A program made the position numbers and the translations under genes. 64,000 nt of DNA, from contig JAOULX010000003.1 in assembly GCA_029881795.1 (NCBI GenBank), forward strand, positions 124,001 to 188,000, written 5' to 3'. How positions within the stretch are numbered: the stretch's first letter is position 1; each line of letters starts with the position of its first letter. This DNA is from Gammaproteobacteria bacterium (lineage in GTDB: Bacteria > Pseudomonadota > Gammaproteobacteria > SZUA-229). Under the pieces are notes generated by a model, which ran no database searches, was not told the DNA's origin, and was given only the letters and a program-made list of their open reading frames with translations. This document shows, piece by piece, positions 17,240 to 47,079 of the stretch.

Positions 17240-17506
17240 ATGACAACAGAAAACAAATCTCAGCAGCCTGACAATAACAGCCGCCGACATCTGCTGCTTG
17301 GTGCCGCAGCAGCAGCCACTACACTGGCAGCAGGCCAGTCATTTGCAACCAGCGCTCATCAGCATCATCACAGCCAGATCAATACTAGTCTGGTTGACTC
17401 GGCTCTCGATTGTTTAAAAAAAGGCCAAGCCTGCAATGACCATTGCATCGAACTGGTTAAACAAGGCGATACCTCTATCGCCGATTGCATGGAGCAAAAT
17501 AAATAA
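17240..17506 (+). CDS. Truncated Tat-exported Csp-type copper-storage protein (DUF326)
   Basis: An 88-residue protein. A twin-arginine signal (SRRHLLLGAAAAATTLAAG) is followed by a His-rich stretch (HQHHH) and the first part of a Csp/DUF326 four-helix bundle (LDCLKKGQACNDHCIELVKQGDTSIADC). Csp proteins bind many Cu(I) ions with Cys lining the bundle, and exported Csp1 was described in methanotrophs. Here the frame stops just after the second helix begins. The stop lies in the first copy of a 17-bp minisatellite, so about half the domain is missing. ATG 17240 is preferred; ATG 17198 and 17225 are in the same frame. It is likely a broken gene. Confidence 0.7.
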   Translation: MTTENKSQQPDNNSRRHLLLGAAAAATTLAAGQSFATSAHQHHHSQINTSLVDSALDCLKKGQACNDHCIELVKQGDTSIADCMEQNK

Positions 17507-17580
17507 GACACCAAAATAAATAAGACACCAAAATAAATAAGACACCAAAATAAATAAGACACCAAAATAAATAAGACACC
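17496..17580. repeat. Perfect 17-bp tandem repeat, five copies
   Basis: The unit AAAATAAATAAGACACC is repeated exactly five times without a mismatch (17496, 17513, 17530, 17547, 17564). The first copy supplies the last codons and stop of the truncated Csp gene. Perfect identity indicates a recent expansion, and copy number is likely to vary between strains. Confidence 0.97.
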
Positions 17581-17755
17581 CACACTAATAAAAGGATAAC
17601 AAAAAATCCCTTTATTCAAGTTCAAAGTTTTTTTATAACTTACGAAATTTTAAAAATTAAGGTGCCTGCGGTCTTTTTACGTGAATGCCCTAATTACAGG
17701 CGAGTGCAGCTATCGGTGTTTACCGAATACAGGAAGGGGGGTTGTTGTGTTAGTG

Positions 17756-45353: not shown

Positions 45354-46190
45354 ATGAAAAGGATGATAGTTTTATTGATGCTGTTGCTGAGCGTTAACAC
45401 CATCGCCAGTGAAAATAAACCGTCACTGTTGCTTGCTGCTATCTATCGTGAAGATATCAATATAAAAGATTACTGGGTCAGTGAAAAACTCGATGGTGTA
45501 AGAGCCTACTGGAACGGCAAGCAGCTGCTTACACGACAAGGTTATAAAATAAATGCACCAAAGTGGTTTACCCGCGTGTTACCAGCAGCCAGCCTGGATG
45601 GAGAGCTGTGGATTGGCAGAGGTCGTTTTGATGAGCTTTCAGCGACAGTAAGAACCTACCATACTAATCATGTCGGCTGGCAAACTGTAAAATACATGGT
45701 ATTTGATTTACCGGGCTCGCCACAAACATTCGACCTCAGGCTGACGCAACTGCAAAAACTGATTCAATCCATCAATGCAAAACATATCCAGCTGATCAAA
45801 CAGTACAGGGTAACAACTCATCAACAACTAACAAAAACACTAAATGAAACAGTCAAAGCCGGTGGTGAAGGTTTAATGCTGCATCTGGGCAGTACGTATT
45901 ATCACGGTGGACGAACTAATGACCTGCTGAAACTAAAAACCTATGAAGATGCAGAAGCGGTTGTGATCAAACACCTGCCGGGAAAAGGCAAATTCAAAGG
46001 TATGCTAGGTTCAATACTGGTAGAAACGCAAAACCAGCAGCGTTTTAAAATAGGCAGTGGTTTTAGCGACCGCGACCGAAAAACACCGCCGCCGATAGGC
46101 AGCACCATCACTTATAAATACTATGGAAAAACCAGAAATGGCATCCCCCGCTTCGCTAGTTTCATGCGACAAAGAAGCCCCGTTGAATGA
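45354..46190 (+). CDS. Exported ATP-dependent DNA ligase
   Basis: A 278-residue small ATP-dependent DNA ligase (Lig E type) with an N-terminal signal peptide (MIVLLMLLLSVNTIASE), so it is predicted to act in the periplasm. The nucleotidyltransferase motif I is EKLDGVRAYW (Lys about 44), motif III YMVFDLPG, motif IV GEGLMLH and motif V LLKLKTY. A compact OB-fold follows. Such proteins are found in naturally competent or biofilm-forming gammaproteobacteria and betaproteobacteria and are thought to act on DNA outside the cytoplasm. It ends directly before the 113-bp repeat array. Confidence 0.88.
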   Translation: MKRMIVLLMLLLSVNTIASENKPSLLLAAIYREDINIKDYWVSEKLDGVRAYWNGKQLLTRQGYKINAPKWFTRVLPAASLDGELWIGRGRFDELSATVRTYHTNHVGWQTVKYMVFDLPGSPQTFDLRLTQLQKLIQSINAKHIQLIKQYRVTTHQQLTKTLNETVKAGGEGLMLHLGSTYYHGGRTNDLLKLKTYEDAEAVVIKHLPGKGKFKGMLGSILVETQNQQRFKIGSGFSDRDRKTPPPIGSTITYKYYGKTRNGIPRFASFMRQRSPVE

Positions 46191-46226: not shown

Positions 46227-46648
46227 ATGCGTGCGAAGCACACTAAATTACTATTATGAAGTTTAGAGAGAGCTGAAGCTGGTGCTAAATTGGCGCGCCT
46301 GACAGGAGTGTACTTGCGTGTGTAGGAGACACGTGGATTATGCGTGCGAAGCACACTAAATTACTATTATGAAGTTTAGAGAGAGCGGAAGCTGGTGCTA
46401 AATTGGCGCGCCTGACAGGAGTGTACTTGCGTGTGTAGGAGACACGTGGATTATGCGTGAGAAGCACACTAAATTACTATCATGAAGTTTAGAGAGAGCG
46501 GAAGCTGGTGCTAAATTGGCGCGCCTGACAGGAGTGTACTTGCGTGTGTAGGAGACACGTGGATCATGCGTGCGAAGCACACTAAATTACTATCATGAAG
46601 TTTAGAGAGAGCGGAAGCTGGTGCTAAATTGGCGCGCCTGACAGGAGT
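46227..46648 (-). repeat. 113-bp direct repeats downstream of tRNA-Arg, 3.7 copies, each with the tRNA 3' end
   Basis: Units begin ATGCGTGCGAAGCACAC at 46227, 46340, 46453 and 46566 (period exactly 113), with only a few substitutions. Each full unit includes ACTCCTGTCAGGCGCGCCA, the last 19 nt of the tRNA (T-arm, acceptor strand, CCA). The copy next to the tRNA merges with its real 3' end at 46648. Two hairpins per unit are possible (GTGC-GAA-GCAC and CGTGT-N7-ACACG). Transcription from the tRNA would read through them. The layout matches E. coli tyrT/rtT. Confidence 0.95.
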
Positions 46649-46706
46649 CGAACCTGTGACCTTTGCCTTCGGAGGGCAACACTCTATCCATCTGAGCTAC
46701 AGGCGC
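46630..46706 (-). tRNA. tRNA-Arg (anticodon CCG)
   Basis: Reads from 46706 to 46630. Acceptor GCGCCTG pairs with CAGGCGC; D-arm GCTC/GAGT; anticodon stem TTGCC/GGCAA around loop CTCCGAA (anticodon CCG); T-arm ACAGG-TTCGACT-CCTGT; discriminator G; CCA is encoded. 77 nt in total. No intron or defect. Its 3' 19 nt are copied in the downstream repeats. Confidence 0.97.
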
Positions 46707-47079
46707 ATTATTGTTAGGTGTTGTTTGCATCGTCTGGAAGACGATGGGGTAACACGCTTGCTGCTGTTGCAGCTGACCCGGTATGTAAAGCTTATCAGTG
46801 TTTTGCGGAATGTATTATCCGTCTTTCACCGACACACGCAAGCACTCTGAGTTACGCAGGTGACTGTGTTTTGTTGCTGTATTTTAGCTAAATAATTGTT
46901 TTTAAGGTAAAAAACTGGCTAATTCAGAACAAGCTGCTAAGAATATACTGTGTTGCGTCAGGAGTCCATAAGCAATTAATTATATTAATTTGGGCTTATG
47001 TGTTCACCGGGCGCGACTTTGGCGCTATAATCCGCGCTTTATTTGTGCCTTAACAGGCTTTCCGCATATTCGTGGGAGA
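46707..47079. other. Divergent gap between tRNA-Arg and cytochrome c5
   Basis: 373 bases without a convincing gene. It holds a perfect 8-base hairpin CATCGTCT-GGA-AGACGATG (46728-46746) 22 bases upstream of the tRNA and the promoter of the cytochrome gene. Frames here look non-coding. Confidence 0.6.
47003..47031 (+). promoter_or_regulatory. Predicted sigma-70 promoter of cytochrome c5
   Basis: TTCACC (47003-47008) and a perfect TATAAT (47026-47031) with a 17-base spacer, about 40 bases before the gene start. Confidence 0.6.

Follow-up and report, generated by a model that had tools for sequence, protein, structure and literature searches.

The closest described counterpart of the repeats studied here is RtT (Rfam RF00391), the repeats of the Escherichia coli tyrT operon that were reportedly described by Bosl and Kersten in 1991. 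To our knowledge, the tyrT/rtT repeats have been cited as peculiar to a single E. coli operon. At tyrV/tyrT in E. coli K-12, we found 178 bp repeats that each contain exactly nt 58–76 of tRNA-Tyr, with four matches to RF00391. Elsewhere, rtT-like sequences are dispersed among BIMEs in enterobacteria (PMC2965389), and RtT-family RNAs near tRNA genes have given Northern signals in Actinobacillus (PMC4986893). Beyond rtT, we found little in the literature on repeats that carry the tail of a tRNA.

The window, by which we mean the whole 64,000 nucleotide stretch analysed, contains an array with this layout behind a different tRNA (Table 1). TRF found a period of 113 bp and 3.7 copies, with 98% matches, at 46227–46648, directly downstream of tRNA-Arg(CCG) and, like it, on the minus strand. 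Read on the tRNA strand, the array consists of three full 113 nt units and a 64 nt partial unit, and any two of the full units differ at only two positions. Every full unit is closed by ACTCCTGTCAGGCGCGCCA, which is identical to the last 19 nt of tRNA-Arg(CCG). This bears out the sequence-only reading, both in its description of the array and in its comparison with E. coli tyrT, and an identity of this kind in each full unit cannot be chance. In standard tRNA numbering, the 19 nt copy corresponds to nt 58–76 and begins within the T-loop, after GGTTCG. As the point differences vary between the copies and the array lies in the interior of a 300 kb contig, a simple assembly error is unlikely. Partial unit 4 is separated by 36 bp from a convergent gene for an ATP-dependent DNA ligase (45354–46190; PF14743, PF01068). 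A coding repeat was rejected: only 60 aa frames are present, they are broken by the 113 bp period, and there is no sign of a gene. About half of each 113 nt unit is a 58 nt conserved element, here named E.

Table 1. Features of the tRNA-Arg(CCG) locus (positions in the window)
Feature	Position	Strand	Evidence
tRNA-Arg(CCG), with the array downstream	46630..46706	-	ARAGORN; Rfam RF00005, 68.3 bits
Repeat unit 1, 113 nt: spacer D, element E, 19 nt copy of the tRNA 3' end	46517..46629	-	
Repeat unit 2, 113 nt	46404..46516	-	
Repeat unit 3, 113 nt	46291..46403	-	
Partial unit 4, 64 nt: D and hairpin 1 of E; second half of E lost	46227..46290	-	degenerate E match 46254-46213
Element E copy 1, hairpins 1 and 2, right end CAAGTAC	46536..46593	-	covariance model, 73.1 bits
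Element E copy 2	46423..46480	-	covariance model, 65.4 bits
Element E copy 3	46310..46367	-	covariance model, 74.0 bits
Copy of tRNA nt 58-76, unit 1	46517..46535	-	0 mismatches
Copy of tRNA nt 58-76, unit 2	46404..46422	-	0 mismatches
Copy of tRNA nt 58-76, unit 3	46291..46309	-	0 mismatches
Weak, probably decayed E copy, upstream of tRNA-Arg(CCG), opposite orientation	46787..46845	+	17.5 bits, E 0.055

When the array was used as a BLAST query against the genome it comes from (G000), partial-unit matches were returned at two other places, C18 and C4, neither of which includes a tRNA. Alignment of these two copies with copies from relatives defined E. It contains two hairpins (hairpin 1, GTGTGC..GCAC; hairpin 2, CGTGT..ACACG). 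Its right end is fixed as CAAGnnC and in most cases adjoins GG; its left edge is not sharply defined. Both hairpins covary: 97.4% of cells are paired and 23 cells have changed on both sides compared with 3.6 in shuffles, in an alignment that was fitted to the model and so favours structure; a smaller independent alignment (A1) showed the same trend, more weakly. Sliding the pairing partners destroyed the signal. The weak copy of E upstream of tRNA-Arg(CCG) forms a 35 nt, 74% inverted repeat with the array and has a genome-wide E-value of 0.5. In four genomes, the loop of hairpin 2 has a sequence of approximately 46 bp (GGTAACTGCTCCTGCGTTACTCTAC..GCATCCATGCAGTCG) nested within it (L105, L090, L096, L109, L136 and L144), and a similar sequence was seen alone near the C18 copy of E (L047).

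Home-made covariance models of E, which give rough E-values, returned 11 matches in G000, including the three copies in the window, and the copy number there is low (six loci). A second model, built from 37 copies, detected E in 11/54 genomes and 5/14 genera of the family, and in a search of 58 relatives no E was found in the 21 genomes from other families of the class. A scan of 84,980 species for the E pattern yielded 12 loci, all in MAGs of uncultured Gammaproteobacteria. The pattern was absent from viral contigs and no match was found in phage or plasmid collections, and a phage or plasmid origin was rejected. The 57 copies extracted represent 49 distinct loci; as the genomes are apparently MAGs or drafts, E copy number and the completeness of loci are uncertain. 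So far, E is known only from one uncultured gammaproteobacterial family.

Comparison of E with RtT revealed a shared layout, with tandem units downstream of a tRNA in which hairpins are followed by tRNA nt 58–76, including the CCA. They differ in sequence, in their hairpins and in unit length (178 bp in E. coli, 113 bp in the window). E also occurs between genes and beside protein genes, and the piece of tRNA that accompanies it can be 25 nt long. For RtT a processed RNA is known. Covariance models ruled out RtT membership in both directions: RF00391 had no match in the window at the gathering threshold or at E-values up to 10, and none in G000 at an E-value of 0.001, and the E model did not match tyrT. 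E thus works like RtT in layout without being an RtT member, and the suggestion that the array is an independent case is upheld. RF00391 did match, unexpectedly, elsewhere in the family, in 21/54 genomes at an E-value of 0.001, with four above the curated cut-off. The RtT copies that we read (L173–L180, in G006, G073, G014, G060, G031, G008, G017 and G005) lie at tRNA-Gln(TTG), tRNA-Val(GAC) and tRNA-Tyr(GTA) and are followed by a copy of the 3' end of that tRNA; those at L178 and L180 are tandem, with units of approximately 185 and 181 bp. By eye, the spacer in these loci also contains an antisense copy of the tRNA T-arm. As E and RtT both occur in this family and neither model matches the other element, we conclude that they are two unrelated hairpin elements with one architecture.

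E is found at tRNA genes and away from them. A tRNA gene (Arg CCG and CCT, Pro, Leu, Met, Lys, Ser or Gln) lies within 100 nt at 18/49 loci (binomial p ~1e-11 even if 5% of sites are assumed to be tRNA-adjacent), and GG directly follows the right end at 34/49 loci, compared with a background of 5%; the copies behind both counts come from models trained in part on the same copies, with the flanks outside the models. At Arg and Pro tRNAs, E is in forward orientation on the 3' side. At tRNA-Leu it is inverted, with its right end on the 3' end of the tRNA, and at tRNA-Met and tRNA-Lys its right end is on the 5' end. The remaining 31 loci have no tRNA, and E adjoins protein genes, terminators or other repeats. 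Downstream of tRNA-Ser(TGA) in G001, a terminator-containing stretch (GCCCTACCTGTTTTTCAGGTAGGGC..) is repeated in tandem (L096, 36–600), and the run ends beside a copy of E.

These locations bear on the possibility, raised in the sequence-only reading, that the repeats give rise to an RNA as at rtT. Transcription would read through the tRNA, the long transcript would be cut at or near each CCA to release a small regulatory RNA per repeat, and selection for processing would keep the tRNA tails. The layout, with the same 19 nt as in E. coli tyrT, agrees with this, as do the covarying hairpins, the Northern signals from Actinobacillus and the fact that no clear terminator was called between tRNA-Arg(CCG) and the array. 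However, E occurs at 31 tRNA-free loci and in both orientations beside tRNAs, and the fold of a single unit is no stronger than that of its shuffles (z -0.24 as RNA, -0.30 as DNA). For the tRNA and array together z is -3.2, which may be due simply to the presence of the tRNA and to repeats pairing with one another. Lacking the 5' half of the acceptor and T stems, the 19 nt tail would also be no ordinary substrate for RNase Z or RNase P. We therefore regard this explanation as unlikely, and the idea that the repeat is defined by tRNA processing is not supported. The E part of the repeat is found elsewhere without a tRNA, at C18 and C4 in G000 and at 31/49 loci overall, and this weakens a purely tRNA-based reading by the criterion that the sequence-only reading itself proposed.

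A second array is present in G000, downstream of tRNA-Arg(CCT). It has a 117 bp unit, and each unit includes E together with 25 nt of the tRNA (GGTTCGATTCCTGTCGGGGACGCCA). The start of contig C17 and the end of contig C16 both fall within this array, as would be expected if assembly broke because the repeats are near-identical. This is an independent second array. A third, with a 109 bp unit that also includes 25 nt of the tRNA, was found at tRNA-Pro(CGG) in G009, and the 19 nt overlap that had seemed the striking point of the window array is consequently not supported as a rule. Simpler forms were found in relatives. At tRNA-Arg(CCT), G001 and G002 have one E and one copy of the tRNA tail, while in G003 no E was found at this position and the flank is too diverged for the junction to be placed. 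At tRNA-Arg(CCG), just one E and one tRNA tail, which is degenerate, are present in the closest relatives (G002 and G003), and we conclude from this single-insert state that the array in the window is an expansion.

At many loci, the right flank of E repeats its left flank, and this similarity is above that in all shuffles at both tRNA and non-tRNA sites. The inserted part is mostly 66–84 bp and the duplicated part 13–75 nt. Where one copy has decayed, as in the aroE case, automatically placed boundaries can make the duplication look shorter than it is. In G002, E separates aroE from hemB and there are two copies of the aroE start; the corresponding site in G000 is empty and has a single copy. 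Similarly, E follows bcp in G024 and G009, where the last 71–72 nt of bcp are present twice, while G005, G017 and G008 have a single copy and no E (aroE, hemB and bcp were named by eye from the sequence). Duplicated flanks together with empty orthologous sites are the signature of insertion with target duplication, and in its dispersed copies and empty sites E behaves as a mobile element would. For some of the copies linked to Leu, Met and Lys tRNAs, no second copy of the flank was detectable, and decay is the one explanation that we can offer.

The empty sites also disfavour plain tandem duplication, in which replication slippage downstream of the tRNA would have built the array and E would be a bystander hairpin that promoted it. 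Palindromes do promote slippage, and the distance between successive junctions, like the sum of inserted and duplicated parts, is often near 106–117 bp. Nevertheless, slippage would not place related copies of E at unrelated loci or leave them missing from the orthologous sites of relatives, and the GG bias at the junction is not expected from it. We consider this explanation quite improbable.

Two kinds of antisense sequence were seen beside E. At the 3' end of bcp in G024 and G009 (L134 and L145), a 14 or 11 nt antisense copy of the target lies to the left of E, guide-like, across the insertion point (TACGCCATTCTTCC). A guide-like role for the left part of E was rejected, as such a match is strong only at these two insertions (14 and 11 nt) and is absent elsewhere. 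At L091, L093, L103 and L107, E is followed by 11–30 nt that are antisense to the 3' end of tRNA-Leu. No intact tRNA is present at these loci; either it was lost, or E carried the fragment along when it moved.

Direct repeats of the tRNA 3' end, from the T-arm on, are the usual trace of integration into tRNA genes. The array could accordingly be the remains of site-specific integration, in which a tyrosine recombinase crossed over at the tRNA T-loop and displaced the 3' end downstream, and successive integrations of a mini-element stacked the units. Tandem accretion would yield the observed order (t-E-t-E-t), and, as at the tRNA attachment sites of integrative elements, direct repeats of the tRNA 3' end flank the insert and the tRNA is intact. 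This explanation is already weakened by the target duplications at non-tRNA sites. Each site duplicates its own sequence (aroE, bcp, terminators), and the right flanks of E differ between loci and share only GG; a common attachment core is thus lacking. The insert is only approximately 80 bp, the units contain no integrase gene, many sites are not tRNAs, and neither phage and plasmid collections nor viral contigs held a counterpart. We judge site-specific integration to be very improbable.

Other small elements share some features with E. Prokaryotic MITEs are likewise small, non-autonomous and hairpin-forming and duplicate their target. In contrast to them, E has two internal hairpins and no terminal inverted repeats spanning the element, its duplications are long and differ in length where those of MITEs are short and fixed, and no parent transposon was identified. 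REP/BIME sequences, which are associated with RAYT transposases, resemble E in being short, dispersed, intergenic, non-coding hairpins of low to moderate copy number. E differs in its long flank duplications, its tRNA preference and the lack of co-distribution with Y1_Tnp, and a GTAG-type REP tetranucleotide was not seen by eye in the E consensus. Two candidate enzymes, PF01797 and PF00078, were compared with the distribution of E, and neither fits. A RAYT/Y1 partner (PF01797) is absent from the E-positive genomes G001, G002, G005 and G008 and present in many E-negative genomes. A resident reverse transcriptase (PF00078) is absent from G000, G005, G008 and G009, near-complete genomes that hold E.

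The explanation that we favour, and consider probable, is that the array is a tandem amplification of E, a non-autonomous, structured mobile element, following its insertion at the T-arm of tRNA-Arg(CCG). E probably acts as folded single-stranded DNA, with its right end joined to targets that start with GG, and the enzyme that moves it would be supplied in trans. Insertion would duplicate some 25–75 bp of the target and generate an intact tRNA, the spacer, E and another copy of the tRNA 3' end. The tRNA would not be disrupted, as one of the two target copies is complete. Unequal recombination or replication slippage between the direct repeats could then give 113 bp units that each end in a tRNA tail. 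The T-arm of tRNAs includes a near-universal GGTTC box, which would account for the tRNA preference of E. The junction in the window lies six bases beyond this point, after GGTTCG, and the same is true of E. coli tyrT (AATCC start). Against E as a mobile element are its blurred left end and the variable length of its duplications, unlike classical transposons, its low copy number and the lack of a partner enzyme among PF01797 and PF00078.

Insertion of E with copying of the target also suggests a possible origin for the tyrT/rtT repeats of E. coli. The same design is now seen with a different element, at several tRNAs, with single-copy intermediates, insertions away from tRNAs and empty sites. 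The repetition of a tRNA gene's own tail thus becomes a testable question of hairpin insertion at the T-arm, target duplication and repeat expansion, and the E family is a candidate place to seek an unknown recombination enzyme. More tentatively, and with clearly more doubt than confidence, we suggest that E and RtT could be unrelated members of a class of very small bacterial mobile elements, so far without a name, which home on gene ends and on the T-arms of tRNAs via single-stranded DNA or RNA hairpins. Joining would leave long, variable target duplications and would involve no known enzyme, and rtT RNA would then be a by-product of insertion.

Two further repeats were noted. A motif near AGTCCGCAAATGAACGCGAATAAACGC, at the end of the L134 region (query positions 1338–1379), recurs at high copy number and in both orientations across many relatives and is another dispersed repeat of the family. 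In the window itself, a perfect 17 bp tandem repeat (CAAAATAAATAAGACAC) is present in 5.1 copies at 17495–17591.
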